61,757 nt of DNA. Origin: a virus. The translations under genes and the position numbers were made by a program. Positions 28,341 to 48,700 of this stretch are shown here, one piece after another; within the stretch, counting starts at the first letter, position 1; every line of letters begins with the position of its first letter. The notes below the pieces were generated by a model. That model was given only the letters and a program-made list of their open reading frames with translations, did no database searches and was not told the origin of the DNA. The stretch lies in the IMG/VR virus record IMGVR_UViG_3300030098_005510, positions 1-61,757 of that record. One strand, 5' to 3'.

Positions 28341-28979
28341 ATGTTCAAATCAATAAAAAAATACTTTAAAGGTCGTAGTGGTCAGTCACTCGCTGAATTT
28401 GCAGTAACAACTGCTATGATGGCCACACTTGCTACCACTGCTGCACCTAAATTTTCCGGTGTTGGAGAAGGTGCTAAGGAAAAGAAAACTCTTGCTGATA
28501 TCGATAAGATAATGAAATCAGCTAACAATTTTTATAATGCTAAGGTAACATCAGAAGGTCGTGGTAGATTTCCTGGTCAGGTAAAGTACAACGAAAGTGT
28601 ACCTGATAATAATGGTGGATATGCTAACGAAGATTTACTTCTCGCGAGTATCGATGTATTCGAAACTTTTGAAAGTGAAGAAGCATCCAAATGGGCTTCT
28701 GTGTTTGGAACAGCAAATTTAGAATCACCAGCACCACAAGGTTCTTCTGTGAATGTATCAGAAGATGATGATAATGATGGTTCATTTGATCTTACAGCTG
28801 GTGCCGAAGAGTTCTTGAATGAGTTTGGTGGTAATGCTATCAAATCACCTTTCCAGGATGGTCACTATATCTACACAGTAATTGCTGGTGGTGGAAGTGG
28901 ACAACAATCCTATTCTCCAATTCTTTATATTGCAGATTTGGAAAGTCCAAAGAACTTTAACAAAAAATTACAACCTTAA
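28341..28979 (+). CDS. Type IV pilin-like protein with noncanonical leader (212 aa)
   Basis: A basic 14-residue leader (MFKSIKKYFKGRSG) ends in Gly before QSLAEFAVTTAMMATLATTA. This gives a prepilin-peptidase site G^Q, Glu at mature position 5 and a hydrophobic helix, then a soluble domain of about 170 residues. The helix has fewer large hydrophobic residues than classical pilins. It is the largest of four successive pilin-like proteins and has its own promoter region after a terminator, so it could be the major subunit. Maturation would depend on host prepilin peptidase, since none is encoded in this window. Confidence 0.7.
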   Translation: MFKSIKKYFKGRSGQSLAEFAVTTAMMATLATTAAPKFSGVGEGAKEKKTLADIDKIMKSANNFYNAKVTSEGRGRFPGQVKYNESVPDNNGGYANEDLLLASIDVFETFESEEASKWASVFGTANLESPAPQGSSVNVSEDDDNDGSFDLTAGAEEFLNEFGGNAIKSPFQDGHYIYTVIAGGGSGQQSYSPILYIADLESPKNFNKKLQP

Positions 28980-29009
28980 AATCAGACTCGAAATCGAGCG
29001 GAGAATACA

Positions 29010-29441
29010 ATGAATAACAAAGGATTCACATTAATAGAACTAATAATGGTTACTATCATTTTAGGGATTCTCGCAGCAGTAGCTATACCAAGATATGTTG
29101 GTGTAGTAGACAAAGCAGAACAGGCTGCAGAAGATGCAATAATATCTTCTGTTAAGGCTGGTTTGGAAAACTATGCTGTCGAACAACTTCTTGATAATGG
29201 TAGAAAGAGTTGGCCAACCCATCCTTTTGATGCTTTAGACCAAGTACCAGTAGGATACGATTCAACAGATGTTGATAATGCTGATACCGATGGCGAGTGG
29301 ACATTCAATACCACAACCAACAAAATCACACACCAACGAAAAGATAACACTCGTTATGCTTGGGCTTATGACAAAGGAGTTCAAACAGGTGACAATGCTG
29401 GTGTTGGTTCAATTGGTACTAGAGAAGCTATTGTAGATTAG
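29010..29441 (+). CDS. Type IV pilin / GspG-like pseudopilin (143 aa)
   Basis: Canonical class III signal: MNNKG^FTLIEL followed by IMVTIILGILAAVAIPRYVG, with Glu5 and the IPR motif. The soluble domain has SWPTHPFDAL and DGEWTFNTTTNKITHQR, both echoed in the pilin-like protein at 29899, so these two are paralogues. Length and features match small pseudopilins of type II secretion or minor pilins. GCGGAGAA precedes the ATG, and a small CTCG-AAAT-CGAG hairpin (28987-28998) lies just before that site and may modulate initiation. Confidence 0.85.
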   Translation: MNNKGFTLIELIMVTIILGILAAVAIPRYVGVVDKAEQAAEDAIISSVKAGLENYAVEQLLDNGRKSWPTHPFDALDQVPVGYDSTDVDNADTDGEWTFNTTTNKITHQRKDNTRYAWAYDKGVQTGDNAGVGSIGTREAIVD

Positions 29442-29452
29442 AGGGGATACCA

Positions 29453-29899
29453 ATGAGAAACTCAAATGCTGGTTTCACATTGGCAGAGATGGTTGTTAGT
29501 ATTGCATTAGTGGGAGTAGTAATGTCATTTGCTATTCCCACTTTTAGTAATGTGACTATGGATACCCAACGACAAATTAATCTTGCCAATATGTCAATTA
29601 TAAAAGATACATTTTTGAGATATTATCAAGAGACACATATGAAAGGTAATCCTCAACTTCCTACAGAGCCAGAAAATAATTTATTAGATGGAGAATATCG
29701 TCAAATAGTATTATCTGATGGTAGAACTCCTAATCATTTGTTTAGTGGAGATTTGCCATTCAATTCCAATCAAAATGCATTTAGATATGAAATAAAATCA
29801 GATACATCCGAGCAAGGATATATAACCAAACTATTTATTATTAGTGATGTGGACGAAGATAGTCCATCATATGAGGAATATATAATCGGAGAAATCTAG
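29453..29899 (+). CDS. Type IV pilin-like / GspH/I-type pseudopilin (148 aa)
   Basis: Class III signal NAG^FTLAEMVVSIALVGVVMS, with Glu5 and a hydrophobic helix ending in AIPTF. The soluble domain starts with a polar helix (NLANMSIIKDTFLRYYQETH) and continues with beta-type sequence. The AEMVVS pattern resembles minor pseudopilins (GspH/I) more than major ones. Its stop shares a base with the next start (GTG at 29899), which suggests coupled translation of subunits of one filament tip. Confidence 0.82.
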   Translation: MRNSNAGFTLAEMVVSIALVGVVMSFAIPTFSNVTMDTQRQINLANMSIIKDTFLRYYQETHMKGNPQLPTEPENNLLDGEYRQIVLSDGRTPNHLFSGDLPFNSNQNAFRYEIKSDTSEQGYITKLFIISDVDEDSPSYEEYIIGEI

Positions 29900-30294
29900 T
29901 GAGTAAAGGCTACACTTTATTTGAACTTGTGGTGGTGATTTTATTGATTGGAATATTAACTGCTGTGGCTATTCCAAGATTTGAAAAAAGAATTGAATTA
30001 GAAGAATTAAAAGCAGAAAAACAATTTGCTCATCGATTGTGGGAAGAGTTAGAACTGTATGCCGATATTCAAAAAGAATTAACAGACATCGATGTATGGC
30101 CTGACCATCCATTATCAGTATTAGGTCGTACAAGAGGTGTCATTGTTACTCACGAGTTAGGTATACCTGATGAAGATAATGAGTGGCAATTTGATGGGAC
30201 TAAACTATATCATAGGAGAATGAATAATGAGATTTGGTATTTTGAATACAACCCTAATAATTTTTATTTGTCTGAACTTCCAATTAAGTTATAG
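29899..30294 (+). CDS. Type IV pilin / GspG-like pseudopilin (131 aa)
   Basis: GTG start at 29899 gives MSKG^YTLFEL, then VVVILLIGILTAVAIPRFEK, with Glu5 present. The motifs VWPDHPLSVLGRTRG and NEWQFDGTKLYHRRMN parallel SWPTHPFDAL and GEWTFNTTTNKITHQR in the 29010 protein, showing recent common ancestry. The gene overlaps the next one by 68 bases, in a different frame. With 28341, 29010 and 29453 it makes a four-gene pilin-like cluster. Confidence 0.83.
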   Translation: MSKGYTLFELVVVILLIGILTAVAIPRFEKRIELEELKAEKQFAHRLWEELELYADIQKELTDIDVWPDHPLSVLGRTRGVIVTHELGIPDEDNEWQFDGTKLYHRRMNNEIWYFEYNPNNFYLSELPIKL

Positions 30295-30879: not shown

Positions 30880-31242
30880 ATGGTACATCTAAAAGACATA
30901 TTTCTAGAACTCATTGAAGATAATTCTTGCATTTACTGTGGTGAAATCGTTGATGAAAATTTAAGACAATGGTTTCAAAAAGGTGGTAAAGGTGGAACAA
31001 CTTCTGGTGGTTGGGATAGGTATGGTTCTGATGGACAAAAACTTGGAAAGTGTGGTGCAGGAAAAAAAGGTGGTGCTTATGCTGCTTGTTTGAGTGCCGA
31101 AAAAGCTCGTAAGCTTGGTAAAAAGGGAAGAGCATCTTTCGTAAGAAGAAAAAGAGCAGCTCAGAAAAAGGGTGGTGATGCGAAAAAAGGTGGTGAAAAA
31201 AGAAAAGCCCAAAAGTCAATCAAGGTTAAAACTGGTGCCTAA
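30880..31242 (+). CDS. Basic protein, DUF5872-like, with predicted capsid-targeting leader (120 aa)
   Basis: The leader MVHLKDIFLE ends with F-L-E at residue 10, with a second candidate LIE site at 13. It matches the leaders of four genes that follow. The body has a CIYCGE pair, then WDRYGSDGQKLGKCGAGKKG, YAACLSAEKARKLGKKG and a very basic C-terminus of Arg, Lys and Gly. The WDRY...C...C...RRKRAAQ pattern is that of DUF5872-type proteins of marine phages. A basic, DNA-neutralising internal head protein fits. It follows a late promoter and overlaps the next gene (TAATG). Confidence 0.65.
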   Translation: MVHLKDIFLELIEDNSCIYCGEIVDENLRQWFQKGGKGGTTSGGWDRYGSDGQKLGKCGAGKKGGAYAACLSAEKARKLGKKGRASFVRRKRAAQKKGGDAKKGGEKRKAQKSIKVKTGA

Positions 31243-32372
31243 TGTCTTTACCTTGTGGATACAAAAGTAATACCGAGACTGTAGCTCAGTATAGAAAGAG
31301 ATGTGGTCCTAGACCATTGGGTATGATAGGTAAGGTTCATGAAGGAGATGACAAGTTAGAGTTGATAAAGTTGTATAATAAAGCTCTCAAAATGATGCCT
31401 AACTCACCTGCACAAAAAAAGATAAGAAAACAGATTTCTGCTTTACGAAAAAAATTAAAAATGGATGAGGCACCAAGAAAACCTCGAAAGAAAGGTCAAC
31501 CAGCTGGTTCAAAAAAACACTCGGATTTATACACGGATGAAAATCCAAAGGGAACAATACACGGGCTAAAGTTTGCTACCGTAAAGGATGCTCAAAAGTC
31601 AGTCAGTAAAATAAAGGGTAGTGGAAAAACCCATGCTCATAAAATACAGGCAGCTATAGCTATGGAACAAAGAGCAAGGGCAGCTGGTAAGAAAAGTGCT
31701 GCTGGTGTGTATAGAAAATTTATTAACCAAATGAAAAAAAAGACTAAACAACGAAATGAAGGTTGGTCGGACAAATATAAGAAAAGTATCGACTGTAATA
31801 ACCCAAAAGGATTTAGTCAAAAAGCACATTGTGCTGGAAGAAAAAAACGAGAGAATAAGATGAGTTTAAAGTTAGAACAGTTAGTAGGAAAGGTTATTAC
31901 AGAAGAACAATTTGATGAGGCAGCTGGTAAGAAGGATGCTTGTTATCATAAGGTTAAAGCTCGTTACGATGTTTGGCCATCAGCATATGCTAGTGGTGCT
32001 CTCGTCAAATGTCGTAAAGTAGGTGCTAAAAATTGGGGTAATAAAAGTAAGAAAGAGTCTTATGATATATGGGCAGAAGATGGTTCATTTGGATATACAA
32101 TGACAGGTTTAGTTGAAGCTGAGTATCAAGGTCGTAAAGTAAAACTTAATAAACCAATGCAAGGTGATTCTAAAAAGTTCAAAGTTTATGTTAAAAATGA
32201 TAAGGGTAATGTGGTAAAGGTAAACTTTGGACAAGGCGGTGACGCTAAAGGTGGAACTATGAGAATTAGAAAATCTAATCCTAAGGCAAGAGCCAACTTT
32301 AGAGCAAGGCATAATTGCGATAATCCAGGACCAAAATACAAGGCCAGATATTGGAGTTGTAAAAAATGGTAA
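31242..32372 (+). CDS. Multi-module basic protein, possible prohead polyprotein (376 aa)
   Basis: Several modules in order: an N-terminal Cys segment (MSLPCGYKSNTETVAQYRKR), a helical basic domain with KHSDLYTDENPKGTIHGLKF and THAHKIQAAIAMEQRARAAG (DUF5824-like), a segment starting MSLKLEQLVGKVITEE, a DUF5872-like part (ACYHKVKARYDVWPSAYASG) and a C-terminal basic domain with NFRARHNCDN and KARYWSCKKW. Candidate prohead-protease sites of T4 form (I/L-x-E) sit between modules: ITE before EQFDEA, and LVE before AEYQGRK. I infer an internal head or core protein that may be cut into pieces. It lacks the ten-residue leader itself. Confidence 0.55.
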   Translation: MSLPCGYKSNTETVAQYRKRCGPRPLGMIGKVHEGDDKLELIKLYNKALKMMPNSPAQKKIRKQISALRKKLKMDEAPRKPRKKGQPAGSKKHSDLYTDENPKGTIHGLKFATVKDAQKSVSKIKGSGKTHAHKIQAAIAMEQRARAAGKKSAAGVYRKFINQMKKKTKQRNEGWSDKYKKSIDCNNPKGFSQKAHCAGRKKRENKMSLKLEQLVGKVITEEQFDEAAGKKDACYHKVKARYDVWPSAYASGALVKCRKVGAKNWGNKSKKESYDIWAEDGSFGYTMTGLVEAEYQGRKVKLNKPMQGDSKKFKVYVKNDKGNVVKVNFGQGGDAKGGTMRIRKSNPKARANFRARHNCDNPGPKYKARYWSCKKW

Positions 32373-33112
32373 AATTAAAAGACTTACTAACTGAAGGCGT
32401 TTTAGATCCTGGCATACTTAAAGCCGTATTTCTTGCTGGAGGACCTGGTAGTGGTAAAGGTTTTGTTGGAAGTGGATTATTTGGTATTCCAAAAAAAGTA
32501 AATGTATCAGCGTATGGCTTAAAACTTGTAAATCAAGATAAAGAATTAGTTCGTATGTTAAACAAGTATGGATTTGGTACAGACTTAGACGATATGCCAG
32601 AAGAACTATTTAGACAATTGACAGATCCTGATTACGAGGATTATAGTGGCTTACGAGGTAGGGCAAAAGAGTTGACTAGGGATAGACAAAAACTTTATAT
32701 GGAAGGTCGTTTGGGTATGATAATAGACGGTACAGGTCATAAGTTTGATAAGATACGAAAGAGAAAATTAGAATTAGAAGAAATAGGATATGATTGTTTT
32801 ATGGTATTTGTCCATACAGATTTAGAAGTAGCACAAAAAAGAAATATGGAAAGACCAAGAAAACTTAATCCTGAATTAGTAGAAGAATCTTGGAATGATG
32901 TTCAAAAAAATAAAATATACTTTCAAGGTCTTTTTGGAAATGCGAATTTTATGATGGTCGATAATTCAAATACCTTAAGTGAAAAACAAGCTACCAAAAA
33001 ATTTAATATGTTGGTTAAAAAGGGTATTGGTTCTTTTATCAAAAAACCAGTTAAAAACTATCGTGGTAAAAAATGGGTTGAAAGACAACTTATACTTAAA
33101 GGAATAAAATGA
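32366..33112 (+). CDS. P-loop kinase, zeta-toxin-like, with capsid-targeting leader (248 aa)
   Basis: After the leader MVKLKDLLTE, a Walker A motif appears in AVFLAGGPGSGKGFVGSGLF. A later IIDGTGHKFDKIRKRK and VHTDLEVAQKRNMERPRKLN fit the lid and Walker-B regions of zeta-toxin/polynucleotide-kinase-type P-loop kinases. Zeta toxins phosphorylate UDP-GlcNAc; phage relatives may act on other substrates, so the reaction is not assigned. With the leader, it may be carried in the head and injected. The start overlaps the previous gene by 7 bases and GGAG lies 10 bases upstream. Confidence 0.7.
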   Translation: MVKLKDLLTEGVLDPGILKAVFLAGGPGSGKGFVGSGLFGIPKKVNVSAYGLKLVNQDKELVRMLNKYGFGTDLDDMPEELFRQLTDPDYEDYSGLRGRAKELTRDRQKLYMEGRLGMIIDGTGHKFDKIRKRKLELEEIGYDCFMVFVHTDLEVAQKRNMERPRKLNPELVEESWNDVQKNKIYFQGLFGNANFMMVDNSNTLSEKQATKKFNMLVKKGIGSFIKKPVKNYRGKKWVERQLILKGIK

Positions 33113-33567
33113 TTAAATTAAAAGATTTACTAAGAGAACAAGATGATTTTAAGGTCGATAAAAAACCTGAACATGAAATTCCATCTCATTTTGGAAGTGG
33201 TAAGGAAATAACTGTAAAGGGATATGAAACCAAACATTTTGACATATGTGCTTCAGCTGTAAGTTTATTTACTAAATTAGATAAAGTAGATAACGAAGAA
33301 GCAACAAAGTATATTGTCGAGGCTGCTAAAGGAATTGACCATATATTCGAGATGGAAAAGGCTGTTGTAAATAAAGAAGCATTAAATCACGATCCTATAA
33401 AACATGGTATTGAGATAACTAATACGGCATCTTTTCAATTAGGGTATGTAGCAAAATTAATTGATGATGATTTTATGGATGAAACACTATTCATACCAGA
33501 ACATATAATGGTAATGGTGGAAAGACAAGATGATATAAAAATAGATAAATCGTTGGATAAGGGGTAA
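33109..33567 (+). CDS. Unknown protein with capsid-targeting-type leader (152 aa)
   Basis: The leader MIKLKDLLRE is followed by a soluble acidic/helical domain: FDICASAVSLFTKLDKVDNE, then a helix with AAKGIDHIFEMEKAVVNKEA and a C-terminal TSFxx-type segment. One Cys, no membrane helix. Starts in an ATGA overlap with the kinase gene, with AAAGGAATA upstream. Family not recognised; membership of the leader group is the main clue. Confidence 0.6.
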   Translation: MIKLKDLLREQDDFKVDKKPEHEIPSHFGSGKEITVKGYETKHFDICASAVSLFTKLDKVDNEEATKYIVEAAKGIDHIFEMEKAVVNKEALNHDPIKHGIEITNTASFQLGYVAKLIDDDFMDETLFIPEHIMVMVERQDDIKIDKSLDKG

Positions 33568-33570
33568 AAG

Positions 33571-34074
33571 ATGATTAAGTTAATGAATTTAATATCTGAA
33601 CAACGGATAAACGAAGAGGCTGGTGTCTTCAAAAATAAGGATGCTGACAAGTATCTTAAAACACTCATGGATATGTTGGGTGAAGAAACATACAAAAGTG
33701 ATAAAGAGTATGGTTGGTATGATGTTACACTTAAAGATCCATACTATGTAAAAAATTTAGATAAGGTCTACATAATAGACGAGTCAATACCACATTCATT
33801 TCCAGCAGACCACAGAGATTTTTGTTACTCACAATATACTGTACCTGAGTGGAAACCAAAAGATGGACAACATACAATAGACACTCAGTTGTTTGAAGAT
33901 TTTGCCAAGGTGACAGGTTCAATTATCATAGATGGGTTGAAGGGAACTGTTACGGCTAGGTGTGGTGATTTGGTGGCAAATGATGTCACAATAAATTTTG
34001 TTCTTGATGTGGTGTCTGGTAAAATAGAACCATCAAGAGATGAATATAAAAAGAGAATATTAGCAACGAGGTAA
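33571..34074 (+). CDS. Unknown protein with capsid-targeting-type leader (167 aa)
   Basis: The leader MIKLMNLISE ends with I-S-E at residue 10. The body is a mixed alpha/beta domain with an aromatic and acidic first half (DKEYGWYDVTLKDPYYVKNL), a segment HSFPADHRDFCYSQYTVPEW and a beta-type second half (GSIIIDGLKGTVTARCGDLV). No catalytic motif is recognised. AAGGGGTAAAAG precedes the ATG. Probably another internal head protein. Confidence 0.6.
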   Translation: MIKLMNLISEQRINEEAGVFKNKDADKYLKTLMDMLGEETYKSDKEYGWYDVTLKDPYYVKNLDKVYIIDESIPHSFPADHRDFCYSQYTVPEWKPKDGQHTIDTQLFEDFAKVTGSIIIDGLKGTVTARCGDLVANDVTINFVLDVVSGKIEPSRDEYKKRILATR

Positions 34075-34076
34075 TT

Positions 34077-34151
34077 ATGGATAAATATAATAAATCAGTT
34101 CAACATCAATGATTTCACCACGCAACTTGGGGGTCCCCAAAGTATGAACAT
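34077..34151 (+). other. In-frame TGA and hairpin upstream of the 34152 gene
   Basis: ATG 34077 has a good ribosome site (GAGG with 5 bases spacing) and opens a frame that reads 11 codons to TGA at 34110-34112. It then continues in the same frame without another stop through 34152 to 34397. A perfect 6-bp palindrome (TTGGGG 34127-34132, CCCCAA 34135-34140) follows 14 bases after the TGA. In the RNA the loop would be GGUC. The ATG at 34152 has no clear ribosome site. The region is a nonsense-disrupted start, a readthrough site or a leader peptide. Confidence 0.5.
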
Positions 34152-34397
34152 ATGGGTGTTGGAAAAGTAACATGGCATTCACTCACAGAAGATGGTAAAG
34201 TAGAGAGAGTTCACATTAAATTTGGAAAAGAAGTGTATGAAAATGTAGATGTATCTCATTTAAAACCACTTAAAATTGAAGCTCATGGTCATCCAGCAGC
34301 TAAAGATGATGAAGAAAATCCAAAAAGAAAAAAGAACGCTCATAAGAAAAAAGTCAAAGAAGTAATTATCAAAGGTAAAAGATATAGAGCAATATGA
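34152..34397 (+). CDS. Small basic protein, possibly the 3' part of a longer frame (81 aa)
   Basis: Beginning at ATG 34152 the product has a beta-rich first half (GKVTWHSLTEDGKVERVHIK, then KEVYENVDVSHLKPLKI) that resembles a small KOW- or Tudor-like barrel, and a Lys-rich C-terminus. The frame is open back to a TGA at 34110 and has an upstream ATG with a better ribosome site (34077). If read through, the product would be 106 residues. The tail overlaps the next start by 4 bases (ATGA). Function unknown. Confidence 0.5.
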   Translation: MGVGKVTWHSLTEDGKVERVHIKFGKEVYENVDVSHLKPLKIEAHGHPAAKDDEENPKRKKNAHKKKVKEVIIKGKRYRAI

Positions 34398-34954
34398 TAA
34401 AGCTGTTAGATTTAATTAGTGAAAAAATTGTCTTGGATATTAAACCAGGAGATGTTATATTAGCTGGTAGATTCAAAAACAAAAAAGTTGTTGTCAAATC
34501 TATAGGAAAAGATGAACATGGTATGCCAACAATAAATGGAAAAAAGGTTGTGAATTTTAGAATATCACCAAAAAACGAAATAAAAGAAAGAGTTGATTTT
34601 TATGATACAGCAAAACAATTAGTCAAGAAAGCTGGACTAAAATCAAAGGTTGTTTTTGCGAAAAGAAAAGGTGTAAAGGCAGATTACAATGTAGATACCG
34701 ATACAATTTACATCAAACCAACATCAGATTTCAAAGATTTCTTAGTTACAGTTTTTCATGAACTTGACCACGCTTTAGATGCAAAAAAATTTGGAAAACA
34801 AAAGTATAAAGACAAGTATGAATTAGAGATGAACAAAGCAGTTGCTAGGGGTGGGGATGCACATGATGATAATTACTACGAAAAGAAAGCAGAAAAATTT
34901 GGTCGTAAGATGGCAAAGGACTATCTGAAGATTAATAGGAAAAATATTTATTAG
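34394..34954 (+). CDS. Zinc metallopeptidase with capsid-targeting-type leader (186 aa)
   Basis: The leader MIKLLDLISE is followed by a small beta-type domain (PGDVILAGRFKNKKVVVKSI) and a C-terminal zincin domain. The metal motif is HELDH in VTVFHELDHALDAKKFGK, with YYEKKAEKFGRKMA downstream offering the third ligand (Glu). Length and motif suit a compact HExxH peptidase. If packaged, it would enter the cell with the DNA and could cut a host defence or regulatory protein; the substrate is unknown. Stop and next start overlap (TAGTG). Confidence 0.75.
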   Translation: MIKLLDLISEKIVLDIKPGDVILAGRFKNKKVVVKSIGKDEHGMPTINGKKVVNFRISPKNEIKERVDFYDTAKQLVKKAGLKSKVVFAKRKGVKADYNVDTDTIYIKPTSDFKDFLVTVFHELDHALDAKKFGKQKYKDKYELEMNKAVARGGDAHDDNYYEKKAEKFGRKMAKDYLKINRKNIY

Positions 34955-36364: not shown

Positions 36365-39300
36365 GAAAATAAAGAAGATTGCTCATTTAGCAGATATTCA
36401 CATTAGAAAACTACATCGTTTTGTAGAGTACAGAGATGTGTTCAACAAACTATATAAAAAATTAGAGGAACTAAAACCTGATTTAATTTATATAGGCGGT
36501 GATGTTGTTCATGGAAAACTTGATACATCGCCAGAAGAAATTAGATTATTGGCAGATTTCTTTTTGAATCTAAGTAATATTTCTAAAACTATTATTATAA
36601 CTGGTAATCACGATTGTAACTTAAACAATAAATCAAGAGAAGATGTATTATCGCCAGTTGTCGATTTGGTTCAACAAATAAATCCTAATTTAATTTATTG
36701 GAAAGAAAGTGGTGTGTATGAATTAGGTGGGTGTCATTTTGGATTACTTTCTGTTTTTGACATTACAAAAGATAATAAACCAAATCTAAAAAATTTACCA
36801 CGAGCTAAAGACATCGAAGGTAAAAACAAAATAGCTCTTTATCATGGTTCAGTTGGTACATTTGAGGTAGATACTGGTTTAAAAATGAGTGATGACTTTG
36901 TTGGTGTCCAAGACTTTGATGGATATGATATGGTTCTTTTAGGTGACATACACAAAAGACAATTTTTAAATAAAGAAGAGACGATTGCTTATTGTGGTTC
37001 ACTTATACAACAGAACTTTGCTGAGTCACCAGAACACGGTTTTTTACTTTGGGACGTTGAAACAAGAAAGTCAGAGTTCATTCAAATAAAGAATGATTAT
37101 GGGTATAAAACCATTCGTGTAGAAGATGGTGATATAAAAAGTAAAATGAACTTTGTACCTCGTTTTGGAAATCTAAAAGTAAAACATCGTAATACACCTG
37201 TAGAACAACTTCGTTTGATTGAGATGGATTTACGAAAAAAATATACAGAAATAAAATCTGTAGCATTTGAAAAGATGGATTCAATTGAAAATAGATTAAA
37301 TGAATCCTCAACAAAAATATCCATCGAAGACATTCACGACTTAAAGGTTCAGAATGGATTGATAGAGAAAGTTGCTAGGTTAGAAAACCCAGCAATAGAC
37401 GATAAAACTTTACAAAGGTTATTCGACATAAACGAATTTACTAACTCATCCATTGGTATGAAAAACGATTTACCGCGAAATGTAGATTGGAAACTTAAGT
37501 ATATTGAGTTTGGTAATATGTTTAGTTATGGTAAAAGAAATAAGATAGACTTTACAAAGCTAAATGGAGTAGTAGGTGTTGTTGCACCCAATCATAGTGG
37601 TAAGTCAGCACTCATAGATATTATTGCTTACACAATATTTGATACTTGTAGCAGAACATTTAAAGCCATAGAAGTTCTAAATAACAAATCAAAAAACTTT
37701 GAGGTAAAATTATCTTTGGAGGTAAATGGTGTAGATTACATCATACATAGAACTGGCTTACTGAAAGAAAGACGAGTGAGAAAAACAGGTGAAATCAGAA
37801 GATTATGTCCTGTTGCCGTTAAGTTTTATGTAGAAGAAAATGGTGAGTTGATTGACCTTAGTGGAGCTGCTCGTAGTAACTCACAATATGGAACAGGTAC
37901 AAACGAAGAAATAAGAAAGATATTAGGAACATTTGATGACTTTATTCTTACATCACTTTCTCTACAGAATAACGGACAGAACTTTGTAGATAAGAAACAA
38001 AGTGAAAGAAAACAAATTCTATCTCAGTTTATGGGCATCGACCTATTTGATAAACTATATGATATTGCTCGTGAAGATGTGGCAGACGAAAAAGCTTATC
38101 TAAGACGAATAAAAGAAAAGAATGTTTTTGAGTCTATGGGTAGAATAGAACAGAAATTAAAAGACTTAAAAAAATCTAAGGTAGAGGTAGAAGAAAAGAT
38201 AGAGCCAGTAAAAAAAGACTTAAAAGATTTTAAATCACAAGTAGAAGAACTAAAGACAAAATTAAAAGATGTAGATGATATTAAGGAGCTCAACTTTGAT
38301 GAATTGATAAGTGAAAAAGAAAGTGAGTTGGAGTCACAAAAAGAAAATTTAAAAGTTGAAGAAGAATATAAAGATAATATTCGACCTCTTTATAACACCA
38401 TCTATAGTAAGCTAAAAGAATATGATGAAGAAACCTTAGACCATAATTATAAAAAGTTTCAAGAGTGTAAAGAAGACTTAAGTAAAATAAAATCTGATGT
38501 TACTGTAAAGGAAAACCAAATAAAACATTTAGAGGTATCTTTAGACGAAGTAAGAGAACATCAGTTTGATGAGGATTGTGAATATTGTGTTAAAAATAGT
38601 CAATGGCATATAGAAAAAATAAAATCATTGACAAGTGAAATAAAAGATTGTAAATTTCAGTTAGACAAAATACTAAATGATAAATATCATCGTGAAAAAG
38701 ACATCAAAAGTTTTGGTGATGTAGAACAAAATAAAGCAAAGTATGAAGAGTTGATGGAAGATTTAAAACGAGTTGAAGGTGATGCCTACAAAACACATGC
38801 GAAAATAAAAGAATTAGAACTTTCAGTAGAACAAACACAATCTAATTTAGAAAAGATTCAAAAAGACCAACAACTATTTTTAGATAATGCTTCAGCAATT
38901 GCTTACAATCGTAACATAATGCAAAAGGTAGATAAGTATCAAACTCAAGTTAAGATTGGTAGTGATATATTAGAAGAACTTGATAAGGAGTTGAAGAAAG
39001 TAGATTCAACTATTTTAATAGAGGAAACCAATCAAAAAAATCTTGGGGAAGAAATCAAAGACCTTGTAGAAGCAGAACAAAAGGTTGCTGATTATGAAGT
39101 CTATCTTCGTTTAGTAAGTCGTGATGGCATTCCTCAGTTAATTATAAATGATGCTCTACCAATAATCGAAAACGAAGTTAATGCAGTATTAGACCATATG
39201 ATGGCCGGTTTTCAGTTAGGTATTACAAATGAAGATAAAAACATAAATCTGTATATACGATATGACGACCAAGAATGGCCTTTAAATCTCTCATCCGGTA

Positions 39301-39569
39301 TGGAAAAGTTCGTTTCCTCACTCGCTCTTCGAGTTGGTCTAATCAATGTTTCTAATCTCCCAAGTCCTAACTTTCTCGTTATAGACGAAGGATTTGGAAC
39401 ACTCGATACAGACAATCTCTCAAACATGAAAGGCGCCTTTGAATACCTAAAAACAAGATTTGATTCTGTATTCATCATATCTCATTTAGATACAATCAAA
39501 GATTTTATGGATTATCTACTACCCGTTACTGTGGGTGATGATGGATTCTCTAAAGTAGTTTATAACTAA
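36357..39569 (+). CDS. gp47-gp46: Fused Mre11-Rad50 (gp47-gp46, SbcD-SbcC) nuclease/ATPase (1070 aa)
   Basis: The N-terminal about 340 residues are an Mre11/SbcD nuclease: LADIHIRKLH, IGGDVVHGK, ITGNHDCN, LYHGSVG and GDIHKRQ, all metal-binding motifs. From about 380, a Rad50/SbcC ATPase follows: Walker A in VAPNHSGKSALIDIIAY, a long coiled coil with the zinc hook CEYC at the apex, the signature LNLSSGMEKFVSSLALRVGL and Walker B FLVIDEGFGTLD. In T4 and most phages these are two genes (47 and 46). ATG 36357 is chosen; GTG 36333 would add 8 residues. The complex resects DNA ends for recombination-dependent replication. Confidence 0.9.
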   Translation: MDKKIKKIAHLADIHIRKLHRFVEYRDVFNKLYKKLEELKPDLIYIGGDVVHGKLDTSPEEIRLLADFFLNLSNISKTIIITGNHDCNLNNKSREDVLSPVVDLVQQINPNLIYWKESGVYELGGCHFGLLSVFDITKDNKPNLKNLPRAKDIEGKNKIALYHGSVGTFEVDTGLKMSDDFVGVQDFDGYDMVLLGDIHKRQFLNKEETIAYCGSLIQQNFAESPEHGFLLWDVETRKSEFIQIKNDYGYKTIRVEDGDIKSKMNFVPRFGNLKVKHRNTPVEQLRLIEMDLRKKYTEIKSVAFEKMDSIENRLNESSTKISIEDIHDLKVQNGLIEKVARLENPAIDDKTLQRLFDINEFTNSSIGMKNDLPRNVDWKLKYIEFGNMFSYGKRNKIDFTKLNGVVGVVAPNHSGKSALIDIIAYTIFDTCSRTFKAIEVLNNKSKNFEVKLSLEVNGVDYIIHRTGLLKERRVRKTGEIRRLCPVAVKFYVEENGELIDLSGAARSNSQYGTGTNEEIRKILGTFDDFILTSLSLQNNGQNFVDKKQSERKQILSQFMGIDLFDKLYDIAREDVADEKAYLRRIKEKNVFESMGRIEQKLKDLKKSKVEVEEKIEPVKKDLKDFKSQVEELKTKLKDVDDIKELNFDELISEKESELESQKENLKVEEEYKDNIRPLYNTIYSKLKEYDEETLDHNYKKFQECKEDLSKIKSDVTVKENQIKHLEVSLDEVREHQFDEDCEYCVKNSQWHIEKIKSLTSEIKDCKFQLDKILNDKYHREKDIKSFGDVEQNKAKYEELMEDLKRVEGDAYKTHAKIKELELSVEQTQSNLEKIQKDQQLFLDNASAIAYNRNIMQKVDKYQTQVKIGSDILEELDKELKKVDSTILIEETNQKNLGEEIKDLVEAEQKVADYEVYLRLVSRDGIPQLIINDALPIIENEVNAVLDHMMAGFQLGITNEDKNINLYIRYDDQEWPLNLSSGMEKFVSSLALRVGLINVSNLPSPNFLVIDEGFGTLDTDNLSNMKGAFEYLKTRFDSVFIISHLDTIKDFMDYLLPVTVGDDGFSKVVYN

Positions 39570-39727
39570 CGACTTCTCAATACATTTCGTGGTTTAGATT
39601 CACCACGCTTCAAACTAAGTATATGTTGATTTAACACAGCGCTCATAGTTGTACTTTCATCTCTAACATACAGTCTAAACCACTCCATAAGTGATTCATC
39701 TATTGTAAAAGAATATTTCTTCTTCAT
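39566..39727 (-). CDS. Ribbon-helix-helix DNA-binding protein (53 aa), minus strand
   Basis: Read on the minus strand from ATG (39725-39727) to TAG (39566-39568). The product starts KKKYSFTIDESLMEWFRLYV and continues RDESTTMSAVLNQHILSLKR, then a basic tail. This is the Arc/CopG-type pattern: a short beta strand, helix, turn and helix with a conserved S-A-V-L-N. GGAG lies 9-12 bases upstream of the ATG on its strand. The stop overlaps the end of the Mre11-Rad50 gene. It is the only minus-strand gene I can support, and lies between DNA-metabolism and fibre genes, next to their promoter, so it may repress one of them or itself. Confidence 0.7.
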   Translation of the reverse strand: MKKKYSFTIDESLMEWFRLYVRDESTTMSAVLNQHILSLKRGESKPRNVLRSR

Positions 39728-39797: not shown

Positions 39798-42700
39798 ATG
39801 CCAGAACTATATAGTCAGATATTAGACCTCAAAGAAAAAGATGTATTTCTCGAAACTGAAGTAAATGACTCACGATATTTTAGTGTCACTGGTTTACCAT
39901 CTAGGTTAAGTTATGGAAAACATCCTTTTTCAATAACATTTAATGATCCTGAAGGCCAACCACTTCTTAAAAATTTATCTAATATAGTTTTCGAATTTGT
40001 TGATTCTAATGATACTGTAATATTTTCTGATTTATTAGACATAGAAGAACTTAGTGGTGCTGGTAATGGTGTTTTATGGATAAAGAAAGATCCTCTAAGA
40101 ACAGCAGATGAAATATCTGATGGTCCTGTTTATCTTTATGTGATGGGTGAGTTGGATGGAGATGAAATACCAAATGAGTGGAAGGGGATATATAATGTAA
40201 GAAGTACATTTGTTTTTGATGCTAGAAAAGATTATCCTAATACTTCTAATCTTGTTTTAAAAAATCCATTAGGAATACAAACAAATCTAAATATATCAGA
40301 GAGTGTAGAGTTTGATACTGCTGATACTGTATTTAAAAGAAGTTTTATAAATGTGTCTCTGACCGACTTAGACACCGATGGTGGTAAAGTAGAATCTGTT
40401 GAGTTGGCATATAATGAAGAAAAAGCTCAAACAGATGATTATGAAATAATAACCACATATCCACTTACAAGTGGTTCATATGAGGTCACAGACATAACAA
40501 AAATATCTGGTCTAAATCCAATAACGAATACTACAAAGATATCAACACCTAAACAATTTAGACGAGACACATCGGTCAGATTCAGACTAAGATTTTTAAA
40601 TCCTGCTGGTGAATTTGCACAATATTTAGATGAAGATAGACAAGGTGAAATAGTAGAGGTCACTTCATCTTTTTTAACTTTCGAAAGCTCACCAACATTT
40701 ATAGAAAAAACTGACAATTTATTAACCGGTTCTTTTAGTGTTGGAGTTGATGTAGGAAAGGGATTTACATTTTCTGGTGCTAAATCAGCAGAGCTATCAA
40801 CTGTTGATTATCAAGGTTTCACAAGTGCATCTGCTGGTTCAGGTTCTGGTATACTTATGTTTTCTGGTTCTGTGAAAAGTGATGTGACAGATGATTATTC
40901 TTTAGGTGGTGTTGGATTAGAATTAGTTGCTGATAGCTCAAGTTTTTTTAGATTTAGAACAAATCCAAAAGAGTTGGATATAAGAGCTAATGCCTTTTTT
41001 ATTGGTTCAGAAACAAGTCAATTTATAAGCGGTTCAAGTGGCGATATAGAAATAAGTTCCTCTGTATTTCATTTAGATCCAGCTAATAGTTTGGTTTCAA
41101 TTAGTGGTAGTATTAATGCCACAGATGGTACTATTGGTGGTTGGAATATTGAAAATGATAAATTAGTAAATTTAGAAAATACTGTAGAGCTGAATAGCAC
41201 CACGCCTGGTTTAAATATAAAAGATGCTGGTGGTATAGATAGAGTAACGATTAAATCTGGATCTTTTTTAACAATAGGTGAAGGAACACAATACATTGGA
41301 AATAAAAGTTTCGAAGATGATACAATATCAGCTGGTAGAAACTTTGTTTCAAATATAACAAGTTGGTCTTTCTCTGAAGGCGGTGGTGTAAATATAAGTT
41401 TGACTGATAGAAGTTCTTTTCCTGACGATGAAAAAGCTGTAAGTGGTGATGTAACTTTGGATGTGGTAGTACCATCAGGTGGTAGCAACTATACCACTAA
41501 AAATAACTATGAATTAGTACAAGTTATAACGGCTTCTTTTAATGCGGGTGATACTCTTTCATTTAGTTCAGTAGCAAGATTTAGTTCATCATTTGGCGGT
41601 AAAGGAAAAGATAGAGCGTTAGGACCACAGTATTTTAGATTGGAATATAGTTCATCTACGTCAAATGGATTCAAATCGTTTTTACCAGCAAATGACTTTA
41701 CAGCTTCAAACGGCTACGGTGAATACTTTTTAGGAAGTGGTCAATATAATAGTTTTGGTGCATCAGCAGAGATGCCAGAAGCATCTGATTTTGTTCGAGT
41801 AATACTTACTGGTAGTATAAATGATGATACTGGTTACACAATTAAAAAACCTTTATTTGCGGAACGTAAAAGAAATAAAGATTTAGGCAATAAAATTTTT
41901 AGTAAAACAATTAAGGGAAGTGCTACAGCCGAGTTTCCTGAAACTGAGTTAAATTTTGATAATTTTTCTTTAAGAAGTAACACAAGAAAAGTTGAACTTA
42001 CTGAAAAGGGTTTATTAATTTATAACTCAGAAGATAGTTTCTTAAAAATGGATGCTAGTGGTATTGAGTTTAGGGGTGGTAGTGGTGTAACGACTTTTGG
42101 TCAATCAATAGCAAGAGAGACTTTTACAAACGATAGTGATGTTGCGGGTAGATTAGGAGCACCTGCATTACAAGCTTATCAATCAGATCCTGAGGATATC
42201 GGAACAACCGCATTTGATGGAAACGTAGGTGAATTTGCAAAAGGAAATCATAGACATAGAATAACATCTACGACAATAAATAATGTAATAAGTTCTTCAG
42301 TCTTGAATGTCGGCGGATTGATTTCAAGTGGTGATATTACGGCTGAAAACTTTATTGTTAAATCAACAGTTACACAAATTACACAATCATTCAGTAGTGG
42401 TTCTACAATATTCGGTGATTCTACTGATGATACTCACCAATTTACAGGATCTTTATTCGTAACAAGTTCAGCATTGACGATTGATAGTGCTGGTACTGTA
42501 AGTGGTTCATCAACCTCAACTGGTTCGTTTGGTGCTGGTAGATTTGCAGGAAAGGTTGGCATCGGCACCACAGGACCGTCTGCTGCTTTACATATATCAG
42601 AAACTAACGATGGTGGGGATACAGCAATAATCCTAAATAATAACGCAGGTGTTGGTTCTACAAATGAAACTGTGTCATTATTTTTTACACATACAGGTAT

Positions 42701-45700
42701 TGCTGGTGGTAAAATAGTATCTGGTAGGACTTTTAATTATTCTACTGTAGCTAACCGAGATAGTAATTTACAGTTTTTCACAACTCAGAATGCGACCGAC
42801 ACATTAGCTCTAACGCTTGATGCTGACCAGAATACAATATTTGCTGGGAATGCGAGTGGTTCATCAACATCAACTGCTTCATTTGGTGTTGTAAGAGCTG
42901 GTAATGGTATAAATAGATTTGGTAATTTATTAACTGATACTCATCAATTTACAGGTTCATTAGAAGTAACTGGTTCGTTTTTGGTAAATGGCGGTGGAGT
43001 CGCCACAACACCTGGTAGCGATAAAGAAGTTGTATTTAATGATGGTGGTTCATTAGGTTCTACATCTGCTTTTACTTTTGATAAAACCACAAATCATTTA
43101 TCAGCAAGTTTACCATCAACCGCATCATTTGGAAAAATATTACAAAATGGTCAAACACTTGCTTCTGTTGGTGGTGCTGATACAAATGTTCTTATAAATA
43201 CAGGAGGTGTAATATCAGGTTCAAATGAATTTGTTTATGACGACTCGACAAATAGGGTTGGCATCGGAGTAAGTCCTTCGTTTTTATTTCATGTTCAAAA
43301 ACAAGTGGATGGTGATTATGTTGGTTTCTTTAAAAATTCAGATTCGGATAATGGATTTGGTGTTGGGATTGATGCTGGTGATGATGCGAATGTAAGAGCT
43401 TTACAAATTAGAAATCATAATGGTAGTGCGGAGTCATTTATAGTAGATGGTGCTGGTAATGCTTTGTTTCCAAGAGCTAATGCAAAAATTAGTGGTTCAG
43501 CAACTTCGACAGGTTCGTTTGGTCAAGGACACTTCGATGGTAGGGTTGGGATTGGAATACAAACACCTGATATAGCTGCAACATCGTTAGACCATTTGGT
43601 TGTTGGAAAACCTGGAACTGGTGTTGCTATGAGTGGAACAAGTCATGTTGGAATTGTGATAGGTACTGGAACTTCTCATATTGGTAGGATTTCATTTCTC
43701 GATAGTCTATCAGCTTTTGGTGGCGCAATTGATTACCATCATGGTGCTGGTTCGGGTGGTGTTGATACCCTAAAATTTTACACAGACAATTATACACAGA
43801 GATTATGTTTAGAAGGTAATAAAATAAGTGGTTCATCAACCTCAACTGGTTCGTTTGCAAAATTAATAACAAAAAATGCAGATATCCAAGATTCTGCCGG
43901 AAACACCTTAATAGGATATGATCCTGGTGATATAGCAAGTGATGAGACAATCAATTTCAAAATAGGTGATGTGGATGGTGTTACTACTGGTGCTACATTA
44001 CAATTAGATGTAGTTAATACAGAAGTTATTTTAAATGACATGAAACTTATAATTCCTGAAACGATTGAACATCAGGGAGACGCGGATACAATTATAGCTT
44101 TTGCTAACGATAAAATAAGATTCAAAGCAGGAGTCGAAGGAGTCTCTCAAGACTTACTTCATCTTAGTGGTTCAAGAATAAGTGGTTCAGTTGCCTCAAC
44201 AGGTTCGTTCGGTAATTTAACTGTTGCGAAGGATTTGATGATGTCCAATGGTAAAGTTTTAAATTGGGGAACTTCTCATGGAACTCTCAGTTCAGCAATT
44301 GTTGGTAATTCAAGCACTAATGTTTTAGTATTTTATACGAATGGTTCTGAAAGAGCTAGATTTAACAGTTCAGGTAATTTAGGCATCGGCACTTCAAGTC
44401 CAGATGGGTTAGTACATGCCTTTAGTGGAAATGCATCTCAAACAGCAAATGCCGCTGCAAATCAACTTATTGCAGAAAATAACACAAATGCTGGTGTCTC
44501 TATTTTGTCAGGTACAAGTCATAGTGGTGCAATATATTTTGGAGATTCTGGTAATGCTAAAATAGGAACTATAATTTATGATCACGGAGATGAACAGTTA
44601 AGGATTGGAGTAAACGATGCTGTTATTTTAACATTAACGGATTCAAAAATAAGTGGTTCATCAACCTCAACTGGTTCATTTGGTGCTGGATTTTTTGATG
44701 GAAATGTTGGGGTAGGTATTGATCCTGATATGACAAGCTTCGATAGAGTATTGCATGTTGGTGGTACTAATACTGCTATAGTAAGATTTACTGGCACAAC
44801 CTATAGTGATACTGGTGGATATGTGGGTATGAACTTTGGTGGGGTGGATTTATTCAATCAAAGAAATAACTATTTGCGTTTTGGTACTAACAATACTGAA
44901 AGGATGAGAATTTCAAATGCTGGCAAAGTCGGCATCGGTGAATCACAACCAACTGTAGCCTTAGATGTTTCAGGTTCAGATAATCTATCGAGTAGAATTA
45001 GACTTGCTAAACATGCTAGTGGAACGAGTAAAATTTTACAACTTGGTGCTGATAGAGATACAACTGCAGTTCCATTCATAGGTGCTGAATCAAATCATGC
45101 CTTTGACATAATAACAAATAATACTCAACGAGTGCGTATAGATACTTCAGGTAATGTCGGCATCGGCACCACAAGTCCTTCTGATTACCATTCCCTAGCA
45201 AGTAATTTAGTTGTAGCTAGTTCGGGAGATACTGGTATAAGTCTTGTCTCTGGAACATCAAGTGATGGTAGAATATTTTTTGCAGATGGCACTAGCGGAG
45301 GTGATGAGTCAAGAGGTCACATTAGATATGACCATTCTGATAATAGTATGCATTTTGTTACCAATGATGCTGGTACTGCAATTAAAATAGACTCATCTGG
45401 TAATTCAGAGTTTCTGAGAGGAAACATAAGTGGTTCATCAACCTCAACGGGTTCGTTTGGAAGAGTTGATGCTCATAGCTTTCAAAATCCAAGTGGTTTA
45501 TTTTTAGGTAGCACAAACGCTGCACATGAGTTTAGTGAAATAACTTCTACCAATCATCTATTTATTGGAGCTGGTGCTTCAACAGTTCAAATGCAAAATG
45601 ATTTAATTCCTGATGGTGATGGAAGTCAAAACTTAGGTTCATCCAACAGAAATTTTAATCAAATTTTTGCTAAAGCAAAAGTTACTGGTTCATCAACTTC

Positions 45701-48700
45701 AACTGGTTCTTTTGGCTCGGTTGTAGCCGGTGGTGTTGGAGTAAATAGTTTTTCATCTAATGTTGGTGTTGGTTTAACTAGTCCTGAAACCATTCTTCAT
45801 ATCAGAGGAGCAGGTGATAAGTTTAGAGTTGATGCAAGTGATGGAACTCAAATTTTACAAATCCAAGAGTTTACAGGTAAGATAGCTGACATTATTGGAC
45901 CTGGTAATAAAGCCCTCAGAATTAATCACAATAGTAGTGGAGATGTTTTTATAGGAACAGGTGGTGGTAGTGTAATGTTAGGAAATACTGTTGCCAATCC
46001 AGCATCAGGTTTTTCTAATCAAAAAGGATTTGGCTTCAATGGTAGTACAGGACAAGTTCAGATAGCATCAAGTACAAATACTGCGGCATTGCAAATTGGA
46101 AAAAATCAAGGCACTGCTGGTGACCTCGTTATTTTTAGACACGAAAGTGTTTCGGTTGGTGCTATTGATACTGCTGGTGGAATAAGTGGTTCATCATCTT
46201 CAACTGGTTCGTTTGGTAAATTATTTATCGGTAATCAATCATTAACCAACACCGGAAATAGTGAGGTACAGTTTAGTCAAAATATTCAGTTGAGAGACGG
46301 TTTTGAATTACAAAATTCACTTGGGTTTAATATAGTTCGTCACGAGATAGATGCTTCTGACTCAGGTGAGGACTTAATTCTATTTGGTACAGACGATTCT
46401 CCAAACACCGATATTTTATTTATGACACCTGGTAATGCTGAGCTTCTATTATTAGAAAATGCTGGGAGTGCAAGATTTTATGGAGATGTCCGATTTACAA
46501 AAGCTAATGCAAAAATAAGTGGTTCATCAACCTCAACTGGTTCGTTTGGTAGAGTTGAAGCCACAACGATTACAGCACCTACTCTTGCTGGGAATACAAT
46601 AATTGATGGTAATTTAAGGACAATAGGTGATATAACTGCAGAAAACTTTATTGTGTCTTCTTCTGTAACAAGTATTACATATCAGTCTCTAAGTGGTTCA
46701 ACTGTTTTTGGTGATTCCTCTGATGACATACATCAATTTACTGGTTCGTTAATGGTATCAGCTTCTGGTCTGATAGGTATTGGCACAAACAACCCACAAA
46801 ATCCAATCCACATTAGAGGTACAGACGCTTTTATGTCATTTACTCATGAGACTAATGGTGCTCAAGCAGGTATTCTATATAGAAATACAAGTGGAACAAA
46901 TGTTGGTTTTGCTGCCTATAATTTTTCAAGTAACGTATGGCAAGTCAGAACTAATAATAATCTTGCTCTTACCCTTGACTCGGCTCAAGATGCTACCTTT
47001 GCCGGTCATATTGCTTTAGCCGCTACTAAAGGTATTTTCTTTGATGGTGGAAGTCATACTTCCATAGCTGAGTCATCTGGTGATAATTTAAGATTTCAAG
47101 TTGGTAATTCAAATGTGTTGGACATTACAACGACAAAAATAAGTGGTTCATTCACTTCAACTGGTTCATTTGGTCATTTAATAACAACTAACAACATCAT
47201 AATGAAAAATGAATTGGGTGCGCCTCATAATATGTTTGAATTTCATGATAAAAATGTTGCTATTCAAAGAGCACAAGGAGCTGATAGATCCAATACTGGA
47301 AACAGTCTATATCTTCATGCTTTTGAAGATATAATATTTACAGCACAAGGCACTACGGCAGCTAGTCAAACTGAAAGGATGCGTATAACTGAAGAAGGTG
47401 ATGTCGGCATCGGCACAGAAAGTCCTACAGCTCTTTTACATTTAGAAGCTGGTTCTGATAATGCAACTGGTGGTATTAGGTTCACTAATGACGACACAGG
47501 TGGTTCAACTGCTACCGATGGAACTGCTTTATTTTTAGAACAAAACACTACAGATTTCTTTATTAGAAATTATGAGAATGCTGGTATAAGATTAAGAACA
47601 AATGATACTGATGCTCTCTATATAAGTAGCGGTCAAAAAGTCGGTATCGGCACCACAAGTCCTGGTTCATTACTCACAATAAAAGATACTGGTGACATAT
47701 CGACCTCTACATTCATATCAGGTATAAGTGGTGATGGATTCAGAATAAAAGACAACGGTTCTGATGGTGTTAGTATGGAAATCGACAACATCACAGTTCG
47801 TAACACATTAAGAACTCATATATTCCAAAAAGATGTTGTTAGAGCTACAAATGGTATTTTATTTATATCAGATAGTGGTGTTATATCAGGCTCTACTGGA
47901 ACTACAAGTAGTGGTACAGTTACGTTTGACAATACCAAATCTGCTACTTTTTCTGATAATGATATACTGCTTTTCAAAGATGCTTCAGATGATGGTACGA
48001 TAAATGCCGTACAATTTCAAATAAATGGAAGCGTAAGTACGGCAGGAGATTTTGATACATACAATGTAGACAATGTAGTAGGTAATTTATCAAACCTGAA
48101 TACTGGCGGTACAGCAGCTAGGATAAGTGGTGGTACAGTAACAATAGACGCTTCATCACCTAATAGTCCTTTCGTAGATGTCAATGAGGCTAGTGGTTCA
48201 CCTGTAGTTAGAATGGGTAATTTAGCTGGAATTACATCTCCTCGATTTGGTGTAAATGATGAGTTTGGATTTTGGGCATCAGGCTCTGCTTATTTAGAAG
48301 GTGCTATAAATGCTAAGACAGGTAACATCGGTGGATGGGGAATAGGAGAAACTGCTATAAGTAGTTCAGGCGATAGTGTTATAATAGATGCTCTTACAAA
48401 AAGAATTACAGTTTCAGATGGTAGTAATGCTAGACTTTTCTTAGGTGAAGTTGATGGAGATGGTTCATCTTTTCCTGGCTCACCACAATTTGGAATAAAA
48501 ATATTTAATGGAAGTGGTGTCGCTGATGGAAATAGATTAGTTGAATTAGGTGAAGGTGCCAATATGATTGCGGGTTGGGATTTACTACCTGGTTCAATAA
48601 AATCAGATACCCAAGATGGAAGTGTAGCTTTGAGTTCTGTATCACAGTCATTAACGATTTGGACTGGTAGTATAAATCACGCTGAACCAAAACTTGTTTT

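Follow-up and report, generated by a model that had tools for sequence, protein, structure and literature searches.

Why should five otherwise unrelated proteins, encoded side by side in one viral genome, begin with almost the same ten residues? The question is raised by IMG/VR virus record IMGVR_UViG_3300030098_005510, analysed here over its whole length of 61,757 bp (hereafter the window), in which seven tightly packed open reading frames (ORFs) occupy positions 30880-34954 of the same strand. Five of them carry the leader, namely, MVHLKDIFLE (30880..30909), MVKLKDLLTE (32366..32395), which precedes a kinase, MIKLKDLLRE (33109..33138), MIKLMNLISE (33571..33600) and MIKLLDLISE (34394..34423), all on the plus strand and at ATG starts; two genes inside the span, 31242-32372 and 34152-34397, lack it. 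An earlier reading of this DNA (the original prediction) had quoted these five N-termini from otherwise unrelated proteins, and they match exactly. It had likened them to the capsid-targeting sequence of phage T4, which is cut at [L/I]xE, and had proposed that the proteins are packaged and injected. The consensus of the five leaders is M(I/V)(K/H)LxxLLxE, with hydrophobic residues at positions 4, 7 and 8 and Glu10 in every case. The strict T4 motif L/I-x-E holds in four leaders and fails in that at 30880, which reads F-L-E, with Phe at residue 8 (P3). The pattern M..#..##.E (# being hydrophobic) occurs in no further window ORF longer than 28 codons, considering all ATG, GTG and TTG starts on both strands, and at the first ATG of none of 531 ORFs from 46 random viral contigs. 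The probability that at least five of about 48 genes would carry it is ~4e-8, and chance can thus be excluded for the five leaders.

The leader is widespread. Back-translation of M[IV]KLKDLLxE into an exact DNA pattern gave at least 120 matching stretches in viral contigs, and at many loci two to eight leader genes stand side by side. A looser pattern retrieved 210 leader genes, which form 81 sequence clusters when clustered after leader removal. The generality that the original prediction gave to the leader is borne out; that prediction spoke of marine phages, but related isolates come from several habitats. In an alignment of 77 leader genes the conserved columns are those of the leader only. 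From cellular genomes the leader is almost absent: in 257 Gb a near-identical pattern matched 13 times, for the most part inside frames or in very short ones, and one match plainly belongs to the viral family found in locus L093. To avoid circularity, we also examined 76 M[IV]KL starts that the search pattern does not cover. Residues 7 and 8 are each hydrophobic in 72 of these (~95%), Glu10 is present in 50 (66%), and there is no conservation from residue 11 onward, the leader ending sharply at residue 10. Between unrelated leader genes, identity is 78% in the leader, 32% in the 30 bases before it and 30% in the 30 bases after it, the latter two values being close to chance, and silent sites within the leader have diverged widely (pS 0.71). 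The low nonsynonymous change in leaders results partly from how they were chosen, which leaves the silent divergence unaffected. Since the flanks are at chance identity and silent divergence is wide, the leader is kept as a peptide and not as DNA, and the diverged silent sites show that its copies are of long standing and constrained at the peptide level.

What could a ten-residue peptide of this kind do? The T4 capsid-targeting sequence is also ten residues long, residues 4 and 7 serving targeting and residues 8 and 10 processing; the T4 protease gp21 cuts at L/I-x-E, T4 core proteins are cut at the same motif, and T-even proteins with capsid-targeting sequences have been described as basic (PMC9026906). 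Judged by their sequences, the window phage and its relatives belong to the T4 superfamily. The window holds T4-like genes for the baseplate wedge and the late sigma factor, and relatives have terminase, portal-, gp21- and gp23-like genes. Neither gp21 nor other head genes were found in the window record; its relative G082, colinear with it (~87-97% identity in the main blocks) through pilin genes, leader cluster and tail-fibre gene, continues to terminase, portal and gp21. Peptidase S77 (gp21) is present in 18 of 35 leader records, mostly fragments, versus 3 of 46 random records (p = 6e-6), and is also encoded by phages Atu_ph07, Melnitz and immuto. Across six genomes, two of which (G003 and G014) have part of their content in common, the gp21-gp23 interval holds 10 of the 28 leader genes, with at least one in each genome, versus 2.6 expected. 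As aligned, the capsid propeptide ends in [LI][LIV]xE in all 16 readable sequences of the major capsid protein from leader phages and from Flavobacterium phage immuto (e.g. QLIDE↓A, QLISE↓N, QIVSE↓A and ELVKE↓A; arrows mark putative cuts), the same motif as leader residues 7-10. Finally, leader proteins have a median net charge of +4.9 per 100 amino acids (aa) compared with -0.9 for other genes (by cluster, p = 1.5e-9).

By far the best explanation of these findings (a common leader that is widespread and ends sharply, gp21 in the relatives, the capsid motif, the basic cargo and the turnover of genes described below) is, in our view, that the leader is a lineage-specific capsid-targeting propeptide, and we consider such packaging and cutting probable. 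Residues 1-8 would attach the protein to the prohead core during its assembly, and gp21 would cut after Glu10, at the [LI]-x-E motif that also ends the major capsid propeptide. The released proteins, mostly basic enzymes and DNA-associated proteins, would stay in the head with the DNA. That they would then enter the next host together with it is a further step, which we hold to be likely, though less firmly. The likeness to capsid targeting put forward originally is therefore well supported in its register, in gp21, in the capsid motif, in the gp21-gp23 placement and in the basic, effector-like cargo; the T4 counterpart has to be changed, since the nearest T4 match is not MKTYQEFIAE but the gp24 propeptide, MAKINELLRE.

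A protein brought into the prohead core and relieved of its leader could also be a core or structural protein that stays in the capsid. Several leader genes between gp21 and gp23 have no enzyme domain, and T4 core proteins, too, are cut at L/I-x-E (PMC9026906). However, many cargoes are enzymes with no known structural role (Zeta-toxin-like kinase, Nudix, ADP-ribosyltransferase-like, Acb1/2'-5' ligase-like, nucleotidase and metallopeptidase), and cargo turns over between close relatives, which makes a structural fate unlikely. Outside the window, cargo includes Nudix, tRNA nucleotidyltransferase, deoxynucleotidase, ART-PolyVal, 2'-5' ligase/Acb1-like and other domains, several of them matched below curated cut-offs.

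The putative cut site can be followed further at domain boundaries. In 37 of 38 distinct contexts of kinase homologues a Glu directly precedes the kinase core, nearly always as [LIV]xE, and what lies upstream of the core may be the window-type leader, either of two further leaders (the second, MSLKKLVEEITKPILQE, and the third, MDKLTKYLTEPFLIEE), another domain, the Melnitz leader MKTFAELQE or the HTVC008M leader MIPFILKE. The second shared leader, MSLKKLVEEITKP(I/V)(L/I)xE, is found on long kinase or cytidylyltransferase ORFs near gp21 (L267, L269, L272, L274 and L285 at the kinase start; L308-L310 for the G082 cytidylyltransferase ORF), and the third reads M(D/N)KLTKYLTEPFLIEE. ORFs of 1000-1700 aa have Glu joints also before SH3-like and cytidylyltransferase-like domains; for the latter, Glu stands at the expected offset in 22 of 24 contexts, with mostly L, I, V or M at P3. 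Most long fused ORFs taken whole show no enrichment of [LI]xE, so that only the domain joints count as evidence; they suggest that the long ORFs are precursors cut at these joints.

Docking is a common role of short amphipathic helices at protein N-termini, and the leader might accordingly remain uncut and attach its protein to another phage or host complex, such as the replication clamp, RNA polymerase or a phage compartment, the match to L/I-x-E being coincidental. Nudix, tRNA nucleotidyltransferase and kinase could indeed work in the infected cell without being packaged. Yet docking needs neither a favoured Glu10 nor a sharp end at residue 10, the same tetrapeptide ends both the capsid propeptide and a ten-residue T4 propeptide known to be cut, and [LIV]xE is kept at domain boundaries behind unrelated upstream sequence. 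We regard uncut docking as improbable; a clamp-binding peptide in particular was set aside because it leaves the favoured Glu10 unexplained.

Comparison with close relatives shows how the genes behind the leaders turn over. Homology between the window and L258/G082 stops exactly at 30909, the leader end, and resumes at 32365, and G082 is without one leader gene and without ORF 31242. Further homology breakpoints fall at 33113-33153 and, in several more loci, at 34388-34395, the leader start. Given the tight packing of the genes, gene boundaries and leaders coincide; that recombination took place inside the leader itself is likely. That breakpoints coincide with leaders might also mean that the leader is kept as DNA, as a recombination seam or translation start cassette with no peptide function, but residues kept despite wide silent divergence and 5' flanks at chance identity, which leave no shared DNA cassette, make this very improbable. 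Genes are thus gained and lost between leaders, and if the leader is a capsid-targeting propeptide, it would for this reason mark a swappable cargo slot. More tentatively, effector domains might exist in two interchangeable forms, either as leader-tagged separate genes or within a long precursor with [LIVM]xE joints cut inside the prohead. Leaders and joints might then be the seams of cargo swapping, and each phage would inject a repertoire of proteins that changes fast and is recognizable from sequence alone.

Virion data are available for a phage with a different shared start. The kinase homologue of Agrobacterium phage Atu_ph07, gp53, is fused to a YRGM-motif domain, and gp54-63 form an array in which nearly all proteins start with M(R/K)W.QL.E. 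In the Atu_ph07 record (L220), positions 41844-50592 hold about ten tandem YRG-motif genes with near-identical 8-residue starts. The two array proteins tested had no Pfam match, so the label ADP-ribosyltransferase-like is taken from the YRG motif only. Proteomics of Atu_ph07 found 29 virion proteins among CDS 31-76 (PMC6102473), an interval that includes gp53-63, this count applying to the whole cluster and not to individual proteins. We checked the numbering against the paper (gp2, clpX; gp4-5, topoisomerase; gp18, tRNA nucleotidyltransferase).

Several observations weigh against a capsid-targeting propeptide. Besides Phe at P3 in the 30880 leader, Glu10 is missing from about one in three of the non-matching M[IV]KL starts. 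Two of the five window proteins, 33109 and 33571, are acidic, so cargo basicity is a tendency only. The gp21 association is weaker among contigs longer than 20 kb (17 of 33 versus 3 of 15, p = 0.04); record length therefore explains part of it. The capsid cleavage site was placed by alignment position, not from an N-terminus, and other L-x-E-like sites lie upstream. Lastly, we found no proteomics for a phage with the exact window-type leader.

What, then, do the seven genes of the cluster, all on the plus strand, encode? The first (30880..31242) specifies a very basic protein of 120 aa (isoelectric point of the mature form, 10.1) related to DUF6321, a family matched by one member of the leader set. 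In other phages the homologous proteins have MIKLKDLLSE↓DLRKWFGKG or a similar sequence, and a second possible cut site, IVDE↓N, stands just before the DUF6321-related domain. The next ORF (31242..32372; 376 aa) is basic and multidomain and has no N-terminal leader, but its domain joints read MDE↓A, ITE↓E and LVE↓A, and its middle domain carries MIKLKDLLSE in G030 (39221-39631). The 248-aa P-loop kinase-like protein (Zeta toxin/AAA_33; 32366..33112), whose core begins at G11, directly after the leader, matched no solved structure by sequence. The 152-aa protein at 33109..33567 has no assigned function; in its structure model the body is folded and largely helical, while the leader is predicted as a low-confidence helix outside this body, and Foldseek with this model gave no match below 0.001 in libraries of solved or viral structures. 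The 167-aa protein at 33571..34074, also with no assigned function, gave an unusable model (predicted local distance difference test score, 36); its G030 homologue is fused to a DUF6321-like domain behind one leader. An 81-aa ORF without a leader follows (34152..34397), and in this slot relatives have different genes, several with leaders. The last gene (34394..34954) encodes a predicted zinc metallopeptidase of 186 aa with HELDH (DUF6782/MPTase-PolyVal, below curated cut-offs), the N-terminal region of which we read as SH3-like; its single match is short and comes from a metagenomic phage that is not annotated. Among leader families elsewhere, a 312-aa family in L011 has no relative among annotated phages.

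The cluster is flanked by pilin-like genes on one side and by RuvC, primase and SbcC genes on the other. Directly upstream, at 28341-30294, lie genes for three proteins that resemble type IV pilins and have N-methylation motifs (GFTLIELIMV, GFTLAEMVVS and GYTLFELVVV), with a fourth pilin-like ORF at 28341; such genes are unusual for a phage, and similar ones are present in G018 and G082. Positions 39798-58453 hold two giant tail-fibre-like ORFs (3984 and 2233 aa) that abound in NVGIGT.SP and SGSSTSTGSFG repeats, which resemble the close relative G082 in blocks only. In the immuto record (L225; 103806, 117631 and 118632), at least three proteins near the head genes share the start F(D/N)L(K/R)(K/S)FL(V/T)ENKLT, possibly the targeting leader of that lineage. 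A 380-aa protein of G030 was rejected as a capsid protein, because it matches immuto gp067, encoded between the protease and capsid genes, and is thus scaffold-like. Just before the scaffold and capsid genes, G030 encodes a ribosomal protein S21-like protein (134279-134518; L142), an arrangement comparable to that in bS21 phages of lake Bacteroidetes (PMC9723584); this hints at a Bacteroidota host for G030.

Injected phage proteins are the first to act against host defences, and they are small, fast-evolving and mostly unannotated. If the proposed reading is true, a ten-residue tag and a protease motif would suffice to list them from genomes of uncultured phages, at present for about 80 families, among whose domains are kinase, Nudix, ADP-ribosyltransferase-like, Acb1-like and metallopeptidase ones. 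Two predictions follow directly from this reading: in virions the mature proteins should begin at residue 11, and a protein to which the tag is fused should be packaged. The principle of capsid targeting is already known from T4 and T-even phages; what is new is the breadth of the leader code and, likely, the interchange of leader genes and fused precursors. In the literature searched (most subscription journals lie outside this scope), we found neither a description of a broad lineage-specific delivery code nor the string MIKLKDLL.

How does the leader compare with known systems? The T4 internal proteins IPII and IPIII start with MKTYQEFIAE↓A, and they resemble the window proteins in having ten extreme N-terminal residues with hydrophobic or aromatic positions 4, 7 and 8 and Glu10, in the motif L/I-x-E, in the unrelatedness of the carrier proteins and in coming from phages that encode gp21. 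The window-type sequence (MIKLKDLLxE) differs, however, its packaging and cutting are deduced here from sequence, and, in contrast to the few internal proteins of T4, it is found on about 80 families and up to eight genes per locus. The gp24 propeptide has the same length; gp24, which starts with MAKINELLRE↓S in the T4 record, is known to be shortened by ten residues at its N-terminus (PMC9958956). ORF 33109 nearly repeats this propeptide, with six of ten residues identical (M1, K3, L7, L8, R9 and E10) and conservative changes at positions 4 (I/L) and 6 (E/D), but gp24 is a shell protein, whereas the window-type leader is carried by non-shell proteins. T4 Alt, the leader of which is cut at ITE-6 (PMC5694885), is likewise a virion-packaged enzyme with a short propeptide ending in I/L-x-E, and ART-like cargo occurs in relatives and in Atu_ph07; unlike the leader genes, Alt is a single gene in T4, and we saw no relation in sequence between it and the five proteins of the window. 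Finally, the polyvalent proteins of phages and plasmids (PMC5512222) and head-packaged NAD/ADP-ribose enzymes (PMC9503650) combine mixed effector domains predicted to be injected, including MPTase-PolyVal and ART-PolyVal; both papers, as far as consulted, deduce packaging from the context of the genes and from fusions rather than from a leader. In leader phages, by contrast, such domains mostly come as separate genes with a common leader or as long ORFs with [LIVM]xE joints: the window cargo is mostly of the former kind, while relatives also have kinase/SH3-like/cytidylyltransferase-like fusions of 1000-1700 aa.

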